From: Bacteroidales bacterium | Lineage (GTDB): Bacteria > Bacteroidota > Bacteroidia > Bacteroidales > JAAYJT01 | Direction of reading: 5' to 3' | DNA: 64,000 nt | NCBI GenBank assembly: GCA_012522795.1 | Contig: JAAYJT010000011.1 | Coordinates: 17,285-81,284, forward strand | In this document: piece after piece, positions 17,271 to 64,000 of the stretch | Position numbering within the stretch: position 1 is the first letter of the stretch | Layout: every line of letters starts with the position of its first letter | Notes under the pieces: model-generated | Database searches by the model: none | What the model was told of the DNA's origin: nothing | Seen by the model: the letters and a program-made list of their open reading frames with translations, nothing else | Program-made: the position numbers and the translations under genes

Positions 17271-17561
17271 TTAATGGATGAAAATAAAATATAAAATTGT
17301 CAGAACAAACATTGTGGCAAGTATTCCACGACCGGTTTTGTCGAATTTTAAACCTGCCATGTAGGTTCGGAAGGGAAAAAGGTTAACAAAAATACTTATT
17401 ACGACCAGTACCTGTTGTCGTAAAAATTTATTGCTGAACGCTTCGGGAAAAATTACTGACAGCAAATGCAAAATTGCGTACGTAACCAGGCTAAGTGTAA
17501 GGGCAATTAATACCCCAAAAGCAAAATTGTCCTTTCTGAAAAAAAGCTTTATCCGTTCCAT
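17271..17561 (-). CDS. Small three-helix membrane protein between surE and lpxB
   Basis: A 96-residue protein with three predicted membrane segments (about residues 14-36, 48-63 and 78-95) and a basic N-terminus (ERIKLFFRKDN). I do not recognise a named family. It sits 24 nt after surE and 49 nt before lpxB on the same strand, so it is almost certainly cotranscribed with them. The position hints at an envelope role, but nothing in the sequence gives a function. Confidence 0.7.
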   Translation of the reverse strand: MERIKLFFRKDNFAFGVLIALTLSLVTYAILHLLSVIFPEAFSNKFLRQQVLVVISIFVNLFPFRTYMAGLKFDKTGRGILATMFVLTILYFIFIH

Positions 17562-52904: not shown

Positions 52905-54236
52905 TTGAAACAACTTCCATCATACAGACAAATCTGGCGGATTTCTTACCCATTAATACTCAGCCTTTTAGCTCAGAATGTTATAAATGTGACTGATACT
53001 GCATTTATGGGCAGGGTGGGCGAAGTAGAGCTTGGGGCTGCTGCCATTGCCGGCATTTTTTATATTGTGCTCTACATGCTTGGTTTTGGTTTTAGTATAG
53101 GTTCTCAGATTCTTATGGCAAGGCGTAATGGTGAGGGAAAATTGAAAGATATTGGGAATATTATGGATCATAGTATATATGTCATGCTAATAATTGGCAT
53201 TTTCCTGTTCATCACTTTACGACTTTTCTCCGCCGATGTGCTCCGCCCGTTTATTGCTTCAGACGATATATTCAATGCTTCGGTTATCTATCTGCAATAC
53301 AGAATATATGGGATATTTTTTGCTTTCTTCAATGTGCTGTCAAGGGCTTTCTTTGTTGCAGTAACTAAAACCAGAATGCTTACCGTAAGCAGTATCATAA
53401 TGGCAAGCGTAAATGTGTTTCTTGATTATGTTTTGATATTCGGACATTGGGGCTTTCCTGAAATGGGAATTGGAGGTGCAGCTTTAGCATCAGCTATTGC
53501 TGAAGGAAGTTCGGCTTTGTTCTTCCTGATCTATTTTCTTACCACGAACGACAGATTTAAGTATAAATTATTCCGGTTCCCGGAGATAAACTTCTCAACA
53601 GTCAGGCAAATATTTGATATCTCATTATTTGTAATGCTACAGCATTTTTTCTCTTTAGCCGTATGGTTTGTGTTTTTCATGATAATTGAAAAAATGGGTG
53701 AGCGTTCGCTCGCAATTGCTAATATCATCCGTAGTCTTTATATGGTGCTTATGATGCCTGTCTGGGCGTTCAGCTCAACAACAAATACTCTGGTAAGCAA
53801 TATAATAGGGGAGGGGTTCAGCGAAATGGTCATTCCTATCATCCGTAAGGTTACCAGAATAACGCTGTTCAGTGTGTTTCTTATGTTAGTACCACTGTTG
53901 ATAATGCCCGGATTGTTTATTAGGGTTTATACTCCTGATGCTTCACTTATAGCTGACAGTATTCCTTCGGTATTTGTGATCCTGGGTGCGACAGCTATTT
54001 TTGCCCTCATACAAAATATGTTTAGCGGTATTTCAGGAACCGGTAATACCCGCGATGCTTTGCTTATCGAGAGTTTAACATTGGTGGGATATCTGGTCGT
54101 TGCTTGGCTGATTGGTATAAAACTTCAGCAGCCAATTACTTTTGTCTGGTTTTGTGAATATTTCTACTATATAGCGTTAGGCATTATTTCGTATTATTAT
54201 ATGAAGTCCAGAAGATGGGAACTCAAAGTTATTTAA
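52905..54236 (+). CDS. MATE-family efflux transporter
   Basis: A 443-residue MATE transporter with twelve membrane helices in two halves. The start is TTG at 52905: no ATG or GTG lies upstream before an in-frame stop (TAA at 52881), and the resulting MKQLPSYRQIWRISYPLIL matches the usual start of Bacteroidota homologues. The family exports cationic drugs or metabolites using Na+ or H+. The motif NVTDTAFMGRVG near residue 28 is characteristic. Confidence 0.88.
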   Translation: MKQLPSYRQIWRISYPLILSLLAQNVINVTDTAFMGRVGEVELGAAAIAGIFYIVLYMLGFGFSIGSQILMARRNGEGKLKDIGNIMDHSIYVMLIIGIFLFITLRLFSADVLRPFIASDDIFNASVIYLQYRIYGIFFAFFNVLSRAFFVAVTKTRMLTVSSIIMASVNVFLDYVLIFGHWGFPEMGIGGAALASAIAEGSSALFFLIYFLTTNDRFKYKLFRFPEINFSTVRQIFDISLFVMLQHFFSLAVWFVFFMIIEKMGERSLAIANIIRSLYMVLMMPVWAFSSTTNTLVSNIIGEGFSEMVIPIIRKVTRITLFSVFLMLVPLLIMPGLFIRVYTPDASLIADSIPSVFVILGATAIFALIQNMFSGISGTGNTRDALLIESLTLVGYLVVAWLIGIKLQQPITFVWFCEYFYYIALGIISYYYMKSRRWELKVI

Positions 54237-56202: not shown

Positions 56203-57186
56203 ATGTCAAGCGAAAATCAAAATATTGAGTGGTTTGTAATTGTGAACCCTAATGCCGGCAGGCGCAAAGGTGAGAAAGACTGGCCTGAAATAGCCAGACT
56301 TTTTGTAGAGGCAAATATACGCTATAAAAGCATGTTCACTCAACATCGAATCCATGCTATACGAATGGCAAGAAAATATGTTGAAATGGGCTACCAGAAT
56401 ATTATAGTAGTTGGTGGCGATGGCACTATGAATGAGGTAGTCAATGGTATTTTTACCCAATCCAAAAGACCTTCCAATAATATTACAGTTGGTCTTATCC
56501 CGGTAGGAACTGGCAACGATTGGTGCCGGATGTTTGGAATACCATATGATTACAAAAGTGCTATTGATGTGATAACCGGAGGCAAAACATTTTTGCAGGA
56601 TGTAGGCTGGGTTAAATTCCAGCAGGAAGGAATGGAAAAAAACCGCTATTTTGTGAATATGGCAGGTATGGGTTATGATGCTTTAGTAGCTGAAAAAACA
56701 AATAAGCAAAAAGATCAGGGAAAAGGTGGTACATTGTCCTATATGTTAAATATTTTTTCGAGCTTGTTTTCTTTTAAAGAAACCATGATTGAGATATCAG
56801 TTGATGGTGAAGATGTTCTGAAAGCTCCTGTATTTACTATGAATGTTGGTATTTGTAAATTCAATGGCGGAGGTATGATGCAGCTTCCGAATGCAATACC
56901 CGATGATGGTATCCTTGATATGACAGTTATTAAAAAACTTAGTCGCTTCAAAGTAGTAAGCTCAGTCGCAAAATTATATGATGGCTCGTTCACGCGCATG
57001 CCTCAGGTAAAAACATTCAAAGGAAAATCAATTGTAATAAATTCAAAACCTGAGGTCTATATGGAGGCTGATGGTGAGTCGTTAGGGCATAGCCCTTTTA
57101 AATTTGGTATTGTACCCAAAAGCCTTAAAGTAATTATTGGAAAGGAAATGCAGGTTACGGATACTTCCACTGATTCTCAGCCTTAA
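56203..57186 (+). CDS. Diacylglycerol kinase-family lipid kinase
   Basis: A 327-residue YegS/DgkB-type lipid kinase. The N-terminus has VNPNAGRRKG, followed by GGDGTMNEVVNG and PVGTGNDWCR, the ATP-binding and metal motifs of the DAGK catalytic domain. It phosphorylates a lipid alcohol such as diacylglycerol or a sphingoid base at the membrane; sphingolipids are plausible in this phylum, but the substrate is not fixed. The 3' end overlaps ispG on the other strand by 32 nt. Confidence 0.87.
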   Translation: MSSENQNIEWFVIVNPNAGRRKGEKDWPEIARLFVEANIRYKSMFTQHRIHAIRMARKYVEMGYQNIIVVGGDGTMNEVVNGIFTQSKRPSNNITVGLIPVGTGNDWCRMFGIPYDYKSAIDVITGGKTFLQDVGWVKFQQEGMEKNRYFVNMAGMGYDALVAEKTNKQKDQGKGGTLSYMLNIFSSLFSFKETMIEISVDGEDVLKAPVFTMNVGICKFNGGGMMQLPNAIPDDGILDMTVIKKLSRFKVVSSVAKLYDGSFTRMPQVKTFKGKSIVINSKPEVYMEADGESLGHSPFKFGIVPKSLKVIIGKEMQVTDTSTDSQP

Positions 57187-58915
57187 GTAGGTCAATAAGC
57201 TCATTGACTGCATCTTGTTCAGCAATATTTTTTTTCATCAGTGTTTGCCCTTTGTACAGGGCAACGCGCCCGTTTCCTTGTCCTACATAGCCATAATCAG
57301 CATCAGCCATTTCGCCCGGACCATTAACAATACAGCCCATTACCGCAATTTTTAATCCTTTCAGATGCGAAGTAGCCTGTTTTACTTTTTCAAGTGCAGT
57401 TTCAAGATCATACTGCGTTCTGCCACATCCCGGACATGCTATATATTCATTTTGTGTAATACGGCTACGAGTAGCCTGCAATACTCCAAATGCAATTCTG
57501 GCTAATGTTTGTTTGTCAATTTTATCATTTCTTAGATAGATACCATCACATAAACCATCATTTAACAACGGAGCTAATCTTATGGCTGAACGAATGGCAA
57601 ATCGATAAATATCGTTATCATCTTCAGTAAAAGACAATAATACAGGCAGCCTAAAATTGTATTTATCAATAAAATTAATTATTTCACGGGCCTTATGTAT
57701 TGATGACAAATTACTTAGCTCAAAAACCGGAATGATCTTACTTGTTTTAATTTCTGGAATTTTAAGGAAATCCATTATCGTAGAGGATAAAGGATCGAGT
57801 AGTAAATAGTTGATTCCCTGATATTTGAAGTCGTAGTTTAAATCTGTTGTGATTTTTCCTTCATTTCCTTCCGTAATAAGATCTTCGTTAATAGTGTGGA
57901 CATCTGAATCTCCCCAAACTACAACTGGTACCTTGCCTCCCCCAATGTTGTTGACAGCTTTGCTGTGGCGGCGCTGGTAATCAATCAGCGAAGCGTCAGT
58001 AAAAACATTTGAGTTATTTACTATTACACCGTTATCGGTTTTTGATTCTTCGAAAAATGATATTATTTCCCTGGCAACCGGGATTTCATTTTCGGGAGCT
58101 TCAGTAAGCGAAACTCTGATGGTGTTGCCAATACTATCGGCAAGTAAAGTTCCTATACCTGCAGCCGATTTAATTCGTCCTTCAAGCCCATTTCCTGCCT
58201 CAGTAACACCAAGATGTATTGGACACTGCATCTGTTCTGCGAACATTTTTTGAATCAGAAGTCGTGTAGCTGCTACCATTACCCTTACATTACTTGATTT
58301 CATTGAGAGTACAAGCTGGTGAAATTCTGCATTATGACACATCCTCACAAATTCCATTGCCGATTCGGCCATGCCTGCAGGCGTATCACCGTAACGCTGC
58401 ATTATCCTCCCCGACAATGACCCGTGATTTACCCCAATACGTATGGCGGTGCCGTGTTTACGACAAATATCAAGCAAAGGTTTAAGTCGTTCGGAAATCC
58501 TAAGTAATTCCATATTGTTTTCATCATCAGAATATTGGAGCTTTACCTGACGTTTGTCAACGAAATTTCCGGGATTTATCCTTACTTTTTCTACCAGTCC
58601 GGCAGCAATTTCAGCAACTGAAGGACTAAAATGTACATCGGCTATCAGTGGGATATTGATACCGGCATCACGAAGTTCTTTTTTTATATTAGCAAGGTTC
58701 TCAGCTTCTTTATGGTTACGGGCAGTTATTCTGATTAGAGCACAACCGGCTTCAGACAGCCTTTTGCATTGCTCTGCAGTAGCCTGAGTGTCGGATGTTG
58801 AGGTATTGGTCATTGACTGAACACTTACAGGTTCGCTACCTCCAATAACTACATTCCCGATCTTTACCGGTCGGGGGTTCCATATAAGTGATGAATTTTG
58901 ATCAAATGAATTCAT
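57155..58915 (-). CDS. ispG: 4-hydroxy-3-methylbut-2-enyl diphosphate synthase (long form)
   Basis: A 586-residue IspG/GcpE, much longer than the ~370-residue E. coli enzyme because of a central insert, as in Bacteroidota, Chlamydiae and plants. N-terminal features are PVSVQSMTNTSTSDTQAT and RINPGN; C-terminal features are the [4Fe-4S] Cys in CPGCGRTQYDL and GCIVNGPGEMADADYGYVG. It converts MEcPP to HMBPP in the MEP isoprenoid pathway. Confidence 0.95.
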   Translation of the reverse strand: MNSFDQNSSLIWNPRPVKIGNVVIGGSEPVSVQSMTNTSTSDTQATAEQCKRLSEAGCALIRITARNHKEAENLANIKKELRDAGINIPLIADVHFSPSVAEIAAGLVEKVRINPGNFVDKRQVKLQYSDDENNMELLRISERLKPLLDICRKHGTAIRIGVNHGSLSGRIMQRYGDTPAGMAESAMEFVRMCHNAEFHQLVLSMKSSNVRVMVAATRLLIQKMFAEQMQCPIHLGVTEAGNGLEGRIKSAAGIGTLLADSIGNTIRVSLTEAPENEIPVAREIISFFEESKTDNGVIVNNSNVFTDASLIDYQRRHSKAVNNIGGGKVPVVVWGDSDVHTINEDLITEGNEGKITTDLNYDFKYQGINYLLLDPLSSTIMDFLKIPEIKTSKIIPVFELSNLSSIHKAREIINFIDKYNFRLPVLLSFTEDDNDIYRFAIRSAIRLAPLLNDGLCDGIYLRNDKIDKQTLARIAFGVLQATRSRITQNEYIACPGCGRTQYDLETALEKVKQATSHLKGLKIAVMGCIVNGPGEMADADYGYVGQGNGRVALYKGQTLMKKNIAEQDAVNELIDLLKAENQWKYP

Positions 58916-58956: not shown

Positions 58957-60657
58957 TTATAACTGCGATAGAAATTCAACAAGTCCGGTGTCGGAATTTG
59001 TAAGATTCAATTTGCGCCTGAGGCGGGTACGGGCAACTTCAATACTTCTGATTGATTGTCCGGTAATTGATGCAATTTCCTTGGTGCTCATATTAAGACG
59101 TAGAAAAGCACAAAGCCTGCGGTCGTTTGGCGTAAGATCAGGATTTATAAGGTTGAGTTTATCGTAATATTCATTATGAACCTGCTGAAACCTTACTTCA
59201 AACTCATTCCATACAGCAGTGTTCTGGGTTTTCTTTAAACCGGACACAAAACCAAGAATAAGATGCTGATCTTCTTTACGCAGTGTTTTACCAAAATCCT
59301 GTAATTTTTGCACGACCTCATTTACAAGTTCATTTCTTTGGATCTGATGCATTACATTGGTAGTCAGTTCTTTGTTTCGTATTTCCAGTTCCTGCCCAAG
59401 GGTGGTTTTTTCGAGTTCAAGATTTTTTGATACCAGTTGTGCATTCTTTTTTTCTAGTTTTAGCCTTTTCATCCGACCCCAGAGCAAGAAATACAGAAGG
59501 GTCAGGATTACCACACTAAGGAACAATACGAGACCAATAATAAAATATCTTAGCTCCTTGCGCTTCTGATTAGCCTGCCTTATCAGGTCCTGCTGTTCAA
59601 ACTGCGCTGTAAGCTCAATGCGGGTAAGTTCTTTCAGAGCCTCATCCTTGCTCATGATATCATTTAATTCCTTTAGAAGAATATGATACTTCAAAGCCGA
59701 GTCGCTTTGATTCAGAAGCTGATAATTATTAAAAATATCGTTACATATCTCGGCTTTAAGTGAATTATTTCCAATCTCCTTGGCAATTGAAAATGCTTTG
59801 TTTAGATATTTCCTGGCTTCTTGATTATTGTTTAGAATTGTATGATATCGGGCTATCATTTTATACGATGAAGCTTCGCCGGCACGATCTTTATTCTTTA
59901 ATCTTATCTTCAATGCTTCTTCCATTGGCGATAGAGCTTTTGTGGTCTTATTCATATCCAATAAAACCGAACTTAGATTATTGAACAGCATTGCAAAAAT
60001 TTCACTTTCTTCATAGGTTCTTTCTGCAAGTTCAATCCCTTTGTTGTAGTATTCAATGGCTTTGTTTACATCTTTCTCGCGCTGATAGATAATTCCGAGA
60101 TTATTGTAAATGTGTATTGATTCTTTATCGAACGATTTTGAAGGGTCTGCTGATTCAGCCTGACGGAAGGATTCAAGAGCGCTAAGAAAGTATTTTTCCG
60201 CCTGTTCAAACTGATTAAGCTTTATATTTATAGCCCCAAGATTTATCTGTGCGAACGCAATAGGGATTACATTTTCAAACTTATGCTGCAGCTCTATATA
60301 TTTCTCAAAATAGCTCACTGCAATAGGAAATAAACCTTGCGAAAACGAAACATTGCCCAAATTGAACAAAGCATAGGCAACAGACTTCTTATTTCCTGTT
60401 TTTTCAGCAATTTCAAGGGCTCGCTGCGAATATTGCAATGAAAGTGATAGATCGCTTTTTTCGTGTATCCTTGATATTGAAACAAGTAGATTGACTTTCG
60501 AAGTGTCGTGCCTTGTGGTTTCGAGCAGATAATACAGTGAATCCAGTCTGCTTTGATTGTTTGCTACTGAGTACGAACAAATCAAAATCAGAATTGAAAT
60601 AATAATGAATGTTTTATTTGAAATTCTTTTCAACAATAGCGTTCCTGATTTAAGCAA
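58957..60657 (-). CDS. TPR - membrane - HTH (LuxR-like) regulator
   Basis: A 566-residue protein. A signal/anchor (about 10-32) is followed by a long TPR array (about 35-330), a membrane segment (about 365-388), a coiled coil (about 390-450) and a C-terminal helix-turn-helix (about 510-560; LNMSTKEIASITGQSIRSIEVARTRLRRKL). This periplasmic-TPR / cytoplasmic-HTH layout is common in Bacteroidota and is thought to sense envelope or sugar signals. The direct target is not known. It lies next to the repeat array. Confidence 0.82.
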   Translation of the reverse strand: MLKSGTLLLKRISNKTFIIISILILICSYSVANNQSRLDSLYYLLETTRHDTSKVNLLVSISRIHEKSDLSLSLQYSQRALEIAEKTGNKKSVAYALFNLGNVSFSQGLFPIAVSYFEKYIELQHKFENVIPIAFAQINLGAINIKLNQFEQAEKYFLSALESFRQAESADPSKSFDKESIHIYNNLGIIYQREKDVNKAIEYYNKGIELAERTYEESEIFAMLFNNLSSVLLDMNKTTKALSPMEEALKIRLKNKDRAGEASSYKMIARYHTILNNNQEARKYLNKAFSIAKEIGNNSLKAEICNDIFNNYQLLNQSDSALKYHILLKELNDIMSKDEALKELTRIELTAQFEQQDLIRQANQKRKELRYFIIGLVLFLSVVILTLLYFLLWGRMKRLKLEKKNAQLVSKNLELEKTTLGQELEIRNKELTTNVMHQIQRNELVNEVVQKLQDFGKTLRKEDQHLILGFVSGLKKTQNTAVWNEFEVRFQQVHNEYYDKLNLINPDLTPNDRRLCAFLRLNMSTKEIASITGQSIRSIEVARTRLRRKLNLTNSDTGLVEFLSQL

Positions 60658-60754
60658 AAATACAAAAAGTTTATGCTGTTTGAATTATAATCAGGGTAAT
60701 GTAGAGGAGGACAATATTAAAGCCCGGGAATTCTATTCATAATGCTATGATTAT

Positions 60755-61190
60755 TAATTGCCGCCGGCTTTAGCCGGTGGTAAAAAAGGGGTGATAACAC
60801 AATATTGGCTTAAGCCAAACCGGTTTAAAAATGTAATTAAATTCTAACATCCAATAGATTTGGGCTAAAGCCCATAGGATGAGGGGATTTATTTAAGGAA
60901 CGGGCTGAAGCCCGTTCCTATTCATTTATTATCAAACCCCGTAAGTGTCTACGACCATACGGGATTTGGGAATGGAATTGGCTAAATTTTCTATAAATAT
61001 TCCGCCCCTACGGGGCTTAGAGATTGAATTTTTATGATTTTCTACCAATATATAGCCCCTACAGGGCTATTAATCCCGGGCGATGAGGCTCTCGAAACGC
61101 CGGATTATTTCATCCCGTAAGTCCCTACGGGATTTAGGGGTGGAATTGTTCTTTTTTCTACAAACATATCACCCTTTCAGGGTTTGTAAA
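60755..61190. repeat. Array of interspersed palindromic repeats
   Basis: Four hairpins with the core GGCT(N)AAGCC lie at about 60757-60921, including CGGGCTGAAGCCCG. Three copies of a TTTTCTA(N)AA(N)AT element followed by CCCCTACGGGG-like palindromes lie at about 60988-61017, 61039-61070 and 61155-61183, and two copies of CCCGTAAG...CTACGGGATTT lie near 60938 and 61114. These look like the small non-coding repeats often scattered between genes in Bacteroidota genomes. No transposase is nearby. The segment just after, 61,200-61,438, holds the apparent junction with different-looking DNA; it carries no convincing gene. Confidence 0.75.
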
Positions 61191-61381
61191 TGGCTAAGCT
61201 ATAGCTGTTTTATACAAAAAAATTCATCCCGCTATTACTACGAGACTAGTATTCTTCACAATCACCCATTGAAACAAACAACAAAACCCCCCTATCCAAA
61301 TCAAAAATCTTTCTCTTCCCCACATAATACATACTATTTTTAGAAAAAGACTAGTACAAATGGACTTTATGGTAGTTTTTT

Positions 61382-61409
61382 TTGACTTTTGGGTAAAAAA
61401 CTCTATACT
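61382..61409 (+). promoter_or_regulatory. Sigma70-type promoter of the UGA-recoded gene
   Basis: TTGACT (61382-61387) and TATACT (61404-61409) are separated by 16 nt, a close match to the -35/-10 consensus TTGACA / TATAAT. This differs from the TTTG / TAnnTTTG promoters seen elsewhere in the window. Transcription would start near 61,416. Confidence 0.6.
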
Positions 61410-61438
61410 CAAAGAGAAATGACTTTTTATTTTTTTCA

Positions 61439-62461
61439 ATGTATGTAATGACAGATCCAATCAACCCTGCTGAGCCAGTAGCAGCTGGGCCAGTAGCAGC
61501 TGGGCCAGTAGCAGCTGAGCCCATAGCAGCCGAGACAGTAGCAGCAGCACCAGTAGCAGCTGAGCAGAGCAAACAGATTGCCCTCGATGATGTGCCTGAG
61601 AGTAATATCGAAATGGCAGCTACAGTGTCAGATTCTTTCTTGGATAAAGGATTATCCAAAGTCAAAGGAATGTTCAATTTCAAAAACAAGACATCCGATA
61701 CCACAAAATCTGAATCTGAAAGCAATTTTTTCAATAAACTCGTCTCTGGGACCAAGAATCTCCTCTCTCATGCTGAGACTTTTACCGATACTGCCTACCA
61801 AAAGACCAAAGAGATTTCCCAAAAGGTAGCCCAAATGCCTGGCAAAATAGCAACTACCGCATCCGAAACCGTCCAAAAATGAGTAGCACTTGGTACTCAA
61901 ATGAGCGACAAGATCGTAGAAAAGGGCCAGCAAATCGGGACACAACTCGAAGGCACCAGCGATAAAATCAAAGATTGACTCAAAAAATGAGTAGACAGCA
62001 CCCTTTCCAGTGCAGAAAAACTTGGTAGTGGAGTCAGTGATGGTGCCAAAAGCATGCTCAAAGATCCCCTTGGAGGGGGCAAAAAGATCATCAGCACTGT
62101 AGGAAATACCGCCAAAGATCTCTGAACTGAAGCAGTTCAAGGAAGCAAAGAACTAGGTAGCGAAGCGATCAAAGAAGTCAGCAATATCGGCACTCAAGTC
62201 AAAGAAGAAGTACAAAATCTGGGGACAGATAATGGAACTGAGGAAGGAATCCTAGGATCCATCAAAGCAGGAGGATCAGAATTGCTCCAAAAAGGCAAAA
62301 AAATCGGCAGCAAAATCGTTGATGAGAGCAAAAACATCGTCCAGAATCCTGTAGAAAAATTAGACACCCTGCTCGACAAAGATGCCAAACAAGTTCCTAC
62401 AGTTGATCCTGAGGATCCCAATAAACAGACACTAGAACAGCTTGAAAATCCTGAAAAATAA
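61439..62461 (+). CDS. Repetitive amphipathic protein with four in-frame UGA (read as glycine)
   Basis: A 340-codon frame ending in TAA. UGA occurs in frame at codons 148 (61880), 180 (61976), 184 (61988) and 229 (62123); no TAA or TAG interrupts. With UGA read as Gly, each side continues the same composition and repeat pattern: K-x148-VAL-G-TQM, K-G163-QQI-G-TQL, D-x180-LKK-x184-VDS and K-G286-KKI-G-SKI share a GxxxG motif, and AKDL-x229-TEAVQ matches SKEL-G240-SEAIK. The N-terminus has PVAAG repeats (codons 13-42); the rest is a Lys/Ser/Gly amphipathic helix-type protein resembling LEA-like or apolipoprotein-like repeats. No known domain is seen. In the standard code it would be cut at codon 147. 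An alternative start is ATG 61448. Confidence 0.82.
61475..61564 (+). repeat. Six tandem 15-bp units encoding PVAAG-type repeats
   Basis: Six units of 15 bp, with a base like CCAGTAGCAGCTGGG, encode P/T-V/I-A-A-G/E/A. The first two are identical at the nucleotide level and the rest diverge by a few bases. They form an Ala/Pro-rich linker at the start of the recoded protein and could vary in copy number by slippage. Confidence 0.85.
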
Positions 62462-62488
62462 TTTTTTTCCACATATCTTCATCCAAAG

Positions 62489-62516
62489 ATCCTCCTTTCG
62501 ATAGGAGGATTTTTTT
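62489..62516 (+). terminator. Intrinsic terminator of the recoded gene
   Basis: ATCCTCCT (62489-62496) pairs with AGGAGGAT (62503-62510) around a 6-nt loop, followed by six T (62511-62516). It lies 27 nt after the TAA stop at 62,461, which supports the longer, UGA-recoded frame as the real gene end rather than the first UGA at 61,880. Confidence 0.85.
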
Positions 62517-62592
62517 ATGTGCTCTTTGTAGTTTCCGCTATCCCCACCCGGGGGTATGATAACAAATCCACCCCCCTTCCCCCCTCCTACGC

Positions 62593-62818
62593 CTCGCAGA
62601 ACTGCGAGAGGTTACCTGCCTCGTACAAGCTACGAGGTCAACTCCGTAGTAAATGCCGAGCTAGGGAGGGAGAAGTTTTTAGCACCAGCCCTCCTTGGAA
62701 GGAGGGGGAGGGGAGGTTCTAAATGCAATCACTCAAAAAACCCCCTCTACTCCCCCTTCATAAGGGGGACTGACTCTCAACATTCCCCATCCCCACCCGG
62801 GTGCTAAGCACCCGGGTG
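62593..62818. repeat. Cluster of five perfect hairpins
   Basis: Within the spacer 62,517-62,850 lie CTCGCAG/CTGCGAG (62593-62608), CCTCGTA/TACGAGG (62619-62637), CCTCCTT/AAGGAGG (62690-62705), CCCCCTT/AAGGGGG (62752-62769) and CACCCGGGTGCT/AGCACCCGGGTG (62794-62818). They are GC-rich in a window that is otherwise AT-rich. No coding capacity is convincing here. They may be REP-like intergenic elements of the foreign genome. Confidence 0.75.
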
Positions 62819-62830
62819 TGAAACTCTCAA

Positions 62831-62871
62831 AAAAAATAACAAAAAAGAAAGGCCACTATATAATAGTGGCC
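62831..62871 (-). terminator. Intrinsic terminator of the last gene
   Basis: GGCCACTAT (62851-62859) pairs with ATAGTGGCC (62863-62871) around a 3-nt loop. On the minus strand it is followed by a T-rich tract (62,850 down to about 62,831). It lies directly after the stop codons of the gene ending at 62,878. Confidence 0.85.
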
Positions 62872-62877
62872 CATCTA

Positions 62878-64000
62878 TCAATCCATCTTTATCATTTTTA
62901 TCATCCTTATCGAAGGATGATTTTTTGGAACTTTTCTTCCTAGAAGATCTTCAATCTCAACATATAGAGATCTTTGGGAAGAAAAGGGAGATATTTCTTT
63001 CACTACTATGAGGGATGGTGTGGAGAGTACTCCACACCCTACAGCCGTAGCTCGTACTAAAGATTTTCCTGGACGGAAAGCAGTCACGAGACCGCTCTGA
63101 TCTACGATAGCGACTTCAGGATCACTACTGCTCCAGAGCAAGTCCGGGTTAGTAGCATTGTTAGGAAGTACCGTTGCAGTGAGCTGCAACTGCTCTCCCT
63201 TTGTCAAGGTGGCTGTGGGTGGAGAAAGAATAATCTCCTCTATCCCAACCACGTCCAGCTTGAAAGTTAGGTAAATCTCGTTATTTTCCCACATTTCTAG
63301 CTCAATGCTAAGGTAGATAGTATCCACCACCTCTCCATTCAGCCACCATGCCTCGAGGACATAGTTGACATCCGGAGTAGCGGTAAAGTCCACTACCGTA
63401 CCCTCCTCCAGCATCGCTGGAGAAGTGATCGCTTCTCCATCCACCAAGGCGCTAAGGATACCGCCATCTCCTGCGGAGAAGGTCAGCTGATATTCTACTA
63501 GGACAGATCTATGGTCGATCACTGTATAGTATTCAATAGAATTGTTGTACTGTGGACCATTACTGGTACCATCGTCAAACATTACCACAAGCGTGAACTG
63601 ATCACCATATTGACTGCTAGGAAGCGCTGCACTAAGCAATTCTTCCAAAAAACAAGTCTTTTTTTTTGCGAATAATGTGGTATTGGTACCATCCGGATTT
63701 TTCTTTTTCCACCAAACACTTTGGTTAACCCACTCCGGCACGCCGATCAGCTCGCTTTCAGCGAGGTAGAAGCCCTCCTCGCTGAGCGTACCGCTCAGGT
63801 CTGAGCCCTCCTCGACCACAAGGATCGTCTCAGCCGGCAGGTCAGCGCCATCCCATTGGGTGACGCCGAAGTAGTTGACATCTGCAGAAACATAATAATC
63901 CTTTCCTTCGGCAGTATAATAATAAGACAACATTCCTGCACCCCATACCTCAATCATATTACCTGGATGAAGTGTAGCAGGATCCGTACCTCCAATTCCA
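62878..64000 (-). CDS. Partial surface protein with Big_2-like domain, 5' end outside window
   Basis: The frame is open to the window edge, so the N-terminus is missing; 374 codons are visible. It includes an aromatic-rich N-terminal part (YYYTAEGKDYYVSAD, VWWKKKNPDGT), a divergent InlB-B-repeat-like segment (about residues 170-235 of the visible part, ending DVNYVLEAWWLNGE), and a Big_2-like Ig domain (about 245-325, with LTKGEQLQLTATVLP and WSSSDPEVAIVDQSGLVTA). Such domains are found in secreted adhesins. The frame ends with UGA directly followed by UAG (62875-62877). If UGA is Gly here too, the protein ends one residue later at UAG. No UGA occurs within the visible frame, so the code is not tested by this gene. 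Confidence 0.75.
   Translation of the reverse strand, partial: GIGGTDPATLHPGNMIEVWGAGMLSYYYTAEGKDYYVSADVNYFGVTQWDGADLPAETILVVEEGSDLSGTLSEEGFYLAESELIGVPEWVNQSVWWKKKNPDGTNTTLFAKKKTCFLEELLSAALPSSQYGDQFTLVVMFDDGTSNGPQYNNSIEYYTVIDHRSVLVEYQLTFSAGDGGILSALVDGEAITSPAMLEEGTVVDFTATPDVNYVLEAWWLNGEVVDTIYLSIELEMWENNEIYLTFKLDVVGIEEIILSPPTATLTKGEQLQLTATVLPNNATNPDLLWSSSDPEVAIVDQSGLVTAFRPGKSLVRATAVGCGVLSTPSLIVVKEISPFSSQRSLYVEIEDLLGRKVPKNHPSIRMIKMIKMD

Follow-up and report, generated by a model that had tools for sequence, protein, structure and literature searches.

A gene with four in-frame UGA codons, probably read in genetic code 25, at the end of a Bacteroidota-like contig

Genetic code 25, in which UGA is read as glycine, has been described in the Absconditabacteria and Gracilibacteria (PMC8629427). 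For a BD1-5 bacterium, 97 peptides were reported to be unique to a translation with UGA as glycine, versus three unique to a translation with UGA as tryptophan (PMC4032931). The Codetta paper describes Chloroflexi assemblies contaminated by contigs of UGA-recoding Absconditabacteria (PMC8629427), and chimeric scaffolds, devoid of paired-read support, have been characterized as rare but real, a rarity that counts against misjoining as an explanation (PMC7111523). Phages common to code-25 and standard-code bacteria are described as mostly avoiding UGA (PMC10746230).

The window considered here is a stretch of 64,000 nucleotides (positions 17,285 to 81,284 of contig JAAYJT010000011.1, assembly GCA_012522795.1), which carries a frame with four internal UGA codons close to its right end (Table 1). 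The genome to which the window belongs is referred to as G000 and its contig as C63; P0001 is the protein of the UGA gene, P0002 and P0003 are database homologues of P0001, and P0004 is the protein of the gene lying to the right. Code 25 has been known since 2013, and no novelty is claimed for it here. The UGA gene most likely comes from a bacterium of the Absconditabacteria/Gracilibacteria type and was probably misassembled onto the end of a Bacteroidota-like contig.

Table 1. Features at the right end of the window (window coordinates)
Feature	Coordinates	Strand	Basis
IspG/GcpE, long form (among the last host genes)	57155-58915	-	Pfam GcpE, 415.7 bits
TPR protein (among the last host genes)	58957-60657	-	Pfam TPR families
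Host intergenic repeat family, final host-like stretch	60717..61231	.	G000 matches, local alignment of host loci
UGA gene, foreign, UGA likely glycine	61448..62461	+	four TGA, homologue alignment, amphipathic 11-residue repeats
Intrinsic-terminator-like hairpin and T run	62485..62520	+	folding energy versus shuffles
Surface-protein gene, 3' part, with Ig-like (Big_2) and InlB-type repeats	62878..63999	-	Big_2, 56.9 bits; open at the contig end

The UGA frame and the residue inserted at UGA

The original prediction described a 340-codon gene beginning at position 61439, with UGA at codons 148, 180, 184 and 229, and all four codons were confirmed as TGA (positions 61880, 61976, 61988 and 62123). 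The frame is also, as had been stated, free of TAA and TAG upstream of the TAA at 62459-62461. Over codons 149-340, after the first TGA, such freedom arose in only five of 20000 base shuffles, and the other two forward frames contain 10 and 14 stops over the same codons. The frame thus stands as described, whereas its start probably does not: the homologues of P0001 begin with MTD or MTE, which makes the ATG at 61448 the likelier start, and the gene is therefore probably 337 codons long (340 if counted from 61439). The codon numbers used here are counted from 61439, and fall by three if the start is at 61448. UGA accounts for four of the 32 glycine codons of the gene. The terminator had been placed beyond the TAA rather than after the first UGA, and a strong hairpin followed by a T run was found there, at about 62485-62515 (-18.5 kcal/mol, z -4.97, with none of 200 shuffles as stable); the hairpin site is absent from the list returned by a consensus terminator scan. 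A sigma-70-like box upstream (61382-61409, 10/12) was given no weight, six such sites having been found versus 5.5 expected.

A search with P0001 of a database of 5.77 billion proteins yielded a single homologue at E <= 0.001, P0002 (42% identity, 98% coverage), and with the alignment of two sequences as the query, two homologues were recovered among the 7996 candidates scored, which were those sharing most words. P0002 has glycine at all four UGA sites of P0001. P0003, which has 188 residues and stops short of codon 229, has glycine, serine and glycine at codons 148, 180 and 184, the serine at codon 180 counting against the favored explanation. Across the seven comparable cells there are, thus, six glycines and one serine, and neither homologue has tryptophan, cysteine or a stop at a UGA site, the outcomes that the original prediction had named as contrary to its reading. 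If alignment columns are taken as independent, the probability of glycine at all four sites in P0002 is 1.1e-4 (35 glycines in 327 aligned positions). P0002 has glycine at 18 of the 28 sites at which P0001 has a GGN glycine codon, and in this alignment the UGA sites match homologue glycines at least as well as genuine glycine codons do. A reading of UGA as glycine in this gene family is well supported by these comparisons (4/4 sites in P0002, 2/3 covered sites in P0003), which draw on two homologous sequences.

The homologues may themselves bear traces of the same code. Tryptophan is absent from P0001 and P0003, and present four times in P0002. These four residues align with glycine three times in P0003 and once in P0001; two of them align with serine and glutamate in P0001, which counts against the interpretation that follows, and one sits in a gapped stretch. 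Because tryptophan in P0002 lies opposite glycine in its relatives, this protein is probably a translation, with UGA as tryptophan, of a code-25 contig whose source likely reads glycine. P0003 ends directly before a residue that is glycine in both P0001 and P0002, and its end may reflect a UGA at that position. Two scans of genome_contigs returned no homologue of the UGA gene, whether from a named member of the Absconditabacteria or Gracilibacteria or from any other source, and viral_contigs gave none with P0001, P0002 or A2 as the query; both negatives count against the favored explanation. A phage origin was considered and rejected, as P0002 has no match among phage or plasmid records and viral_contigs gave none either; its single weak PHROG match, to a tail tape-measure family (E 0.0064), can reflect the composition of a long helical protein. 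Relative to the libraries searched, the family is new, and it may be confined to code-25 bacteria.

The identification of the missing residue from internal repeats was borne out by the periodicity of the protein. In both P0001 and P0002, the power of hydrophobicity at a period of 11/3 residues exceeds that of 1000 of 1000 shuffles, and the strongest lag of self-identity is 11; eight of the 28 glycines in the repeat part of P0001 share one register of 11, codon 229 included. P0001, thus, looks like an amphipathic-helix protein built of 11-residue repeats. Late embryogenesis abundant (LEA) proteins are of this amphipathic, 11-residue-repeat type, and P0001 resembles them and the apolipoproteins in its helical period of 11/3, its richness in lysine and glutamate, and its glycines in register. 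It differs from the apolipoproteins in its Pfam score, which is far under the cut-off (PF01442, 21.2 bits versus 90), and membership of that family is not claimed; Apolipoprotein, suprabasin and Senescence were the Pfam matches obtained, all sub-threshold. Structure prediction from a three-sequence alignment gave long helices in a poor model (mean pLDDT 38.8). The likeliest role would be that of a cytosolic amphipathic-helix protein coating membrane or lipid surfaces, or of a LEA-like protectant.

The host genome and the end of its contig

The loss of RF2 and the tRNA with anticodon UCA expected under code 25 are not found in G000. This genome has prfB (on contig C94, 492.1 bits versus a cut-off of 370), a second match in the release-factor search being RF1-like, and none of its 39 tRNA matches has the anticodon UCA (150 of the 243 first-look candidates were scored, and ARAGORN read all 39 places). 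Among 43 chosen genes of the window, the stops are TAA in 28, TGA in 12 and TAG in three; a table-11 gene list ends at TGA by construction, and more telling is the lack of any in-frame TGA in window genes of 779, 675, 646 and 640 residues. The release factor, the tRNA set and these long genes, open under table 11, rule out recoding of the genome as a whole and refute code 25 for the parent; the host being standard-code, the UGA gene is out of place in it. The T9SS tail domain was matched 83 times in G000, with 79 of these matches over the cut-off; of the 14 genomes used as controls, Bacteroides ihuae alone gave a match, and this was under the cut-off. These tails, together with TamL (684 bits) and the long form of IspG, suggest that G000 is Bacteroidota-like. 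The assembly is rated as 97% complete and 0.79% contaminated. The same contig carries, at L003 13629-17284, a complete 16S gene together with tRNA-Ile, tRNA-Ala and the first part of a 23S gene.

The right end of the window is the end of the contig (81284 of 81284). To the left of the UGA gene, IspG, a diacylglycerol-kinase-like gene, a Wzy-like gene and the gene at 52905 occur in the same order in G002, a genome of the same genus; no copy of the TPR gene turned up in the 14 kb of G002 used for this comparison. Local alignment with host loci shows that host similarity ends at about 61231, inside an intergenic repeat. This repeat occurs in at least 19 places in G000, itself included (14 of 39 candidates scored), and among the matches from these scored candidates, eight of 11 other contigs have a copy within 110 bases of a contig end (C55, C7, C40, C42, C32, C12, C35 and C72), the inner copies being on C28, C25 and C31. 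The repeat family is diverged and rich in short palindromes, GGGCTGAAGCCC being one example. Beyond the repeat, 61240-62880 has no other match in G000 (35/35 candidates scored). The stretch 60658-64000 has no match in the same-genus genomes G001 (8/8 candidates scored) and G002 (14/23 scored), and matches just one of 20 relatives, G008, with one match in the repeat and one of 30 bases in an A-rich stretch (about 62817-62846). No RNA family was found across 60600-64000. The intergenic stretch 62540-62830 is GC-rich (GC 0.52 over 62540-62878), with palindromic motifs of the CCCACCCGGG type.

Composition changes along this stretch. GC climbs from 0.36 over 60001-61000 to 0.413, 0.442 and 0.484 over the last three kilobases. 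Codon-usage likelihood is 0.004 for the UGA gene and -0.074 for the gene to its right, and all 43 of the 43 host genes are higher (lowest 0.049). When codon usage was compared with that of host IspG, the observed difference was reached in none of 1000 permutations for either of these two genes, versus 387 and 127 of 1000 for the host controls, the TPR and Wzy genes. The tetranucleotide distance of 61240-62540 (0.508) counts against a foreign origin, being raised relative to the host mean (0.269, sd 0.047) yet under the host maximum (0.537), and it is therefore not decisive.

The gene to the right has no TGA in 373 codons, its 30 glycines all being encoded by GGN, and its codon usage differs from that of the UGA gene (4/1000 permutations). 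A search found 30 proteins, one of them the window's own; P0016, one of these homologues, bears a T9SS tail domain, and the ends of other homologues resemble such tails by eye only. Tryptophan residues of the homologues align in P0004 mostly with tryptophan, otherwise with alanine, asparagine, phenylalanine, glutamate or gaps, and never with glycine. This gene looks standard-code, with codon usage that is again different, and it probably comes from a third source. In the order, 393 genomes were scanned for relatives and 162 of them, G000 included, have a match; the best match outside G000 is at the level of a domain (35% over residues 186-334), and no relative was found in G001, G002 or viral_contigs. 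The gene ends with TGA-TAG. A hairpin lies on the + strand at 62900-62921, inside the end of the gene. Its close homologues have an unusual terminus in common, SIRMIKMIKMD, which is encoded by a hairpin that a T run follows on the opposite strand.

Origin of the terminal stretch and comparison with known systems

Misjoining is favored because of the position at the contig end, the repeat at the join, the foreign codon usage and the absence of any other match in G000. The putative join would lie after 61231, where the host repeat ends, and a second, to the surface-protein gene of other origin, would lie between 62520 and 62950, or there would be none. In the source cell, RF2 would be absent, the four UGAs would be decoded by a glycine tRNA whose anticodon is UCA, and the product would be a protein of 337 residues with amphipathic helical repeats of 11 residues, likely to bind membrane or lipid surfaces or to be LEA-like; in a Bacteroidota cell, the frame would end at the first UGA. 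If the right-hand gene belongs to another genome, two joins are needed within 2.8 kb, which counts against this account. A single join, with all of 61232-64000 coming from a code-25 bacterium that had lately acquired the Ig-like gene from the Bacteroidota, would spare one assembly error, and the TGA-TAG end of the surface gene also closes under code 25. This version is nevertheless doubtful, given the 373 TGA-free codons and 30 GGN glycines of that gene, the divergent codon usage of the two foreign genes, the tryptophans of homologues mostly opposite tryptophan and never opposite glycine in P0004, and the T9SS tail of P0016.

True horizontal transfer, by which a Bacteroidota chromosome would carry a code-25 gene with foreign codons inside an intergenic repeat array, the gene being dead or yielding a fragment of 144 residues, is improbable. 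The contig is unbroken across the junction, and contact is plausible, as code-25 bacteria are described as host-dependent; but the foreign DNA reaches the contig end without ever reverting to host DNA, it is unmatched in G001 and G002 as far as candidates were scored, the genes listed from the join onward include no integrase or other mobility gene, and the frame is intact, with no UAA or UAG. Integrity also makes a standard-code pseudogene, with four TGA mutations or sequencing errors, highly improbable: the host does read UGA as a stop, but all four premature stops are TGA, all fall at glycine sites of P0002, and the 340 codons have neither TAA, TAG nor frameshift, with an intact terminator. 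Scarcely credible is a reading of UGA as tryptophan (code 4) or selenocysteine; the database version of P0002 was apparently translated with UGA as tryptophan, but tryptophan and cysteine are absent from the seven comparable homologue cells.

Misassembly being the probable origin and the code a known one, the locus is likely a stray piece of that code and not a new code. A code-25 gene can, thus, be recognized in raw sequence through its internal repeats, and code-25 DNA can hide in a contig of a genome with a high completeness and low contamination rating. Public protein sets probably include code-25 proteins translated with UGA as tryptophan, P0002 being an example. If horizontal transfer were real, the locus would capture a gene in the course of crossing from one genetic code to another, its foreign codons still in place.

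The gene resembles those of the Absconditabacteria (SR1) and Gracilibacteria (BD1-5) in having in-frame UGA at glycine positions and UAA as its stop; unlike them, it sits on a contig whose genome uses the standard code, and is known here from the gene alone. As in the Chloroflexi contamination described by the Codetta paper (PMC8629427), code-25 genes occur within a standard-code assembly; in that description whole contigs were concerned, whereas here the foreign DNA lies inside a host contig.
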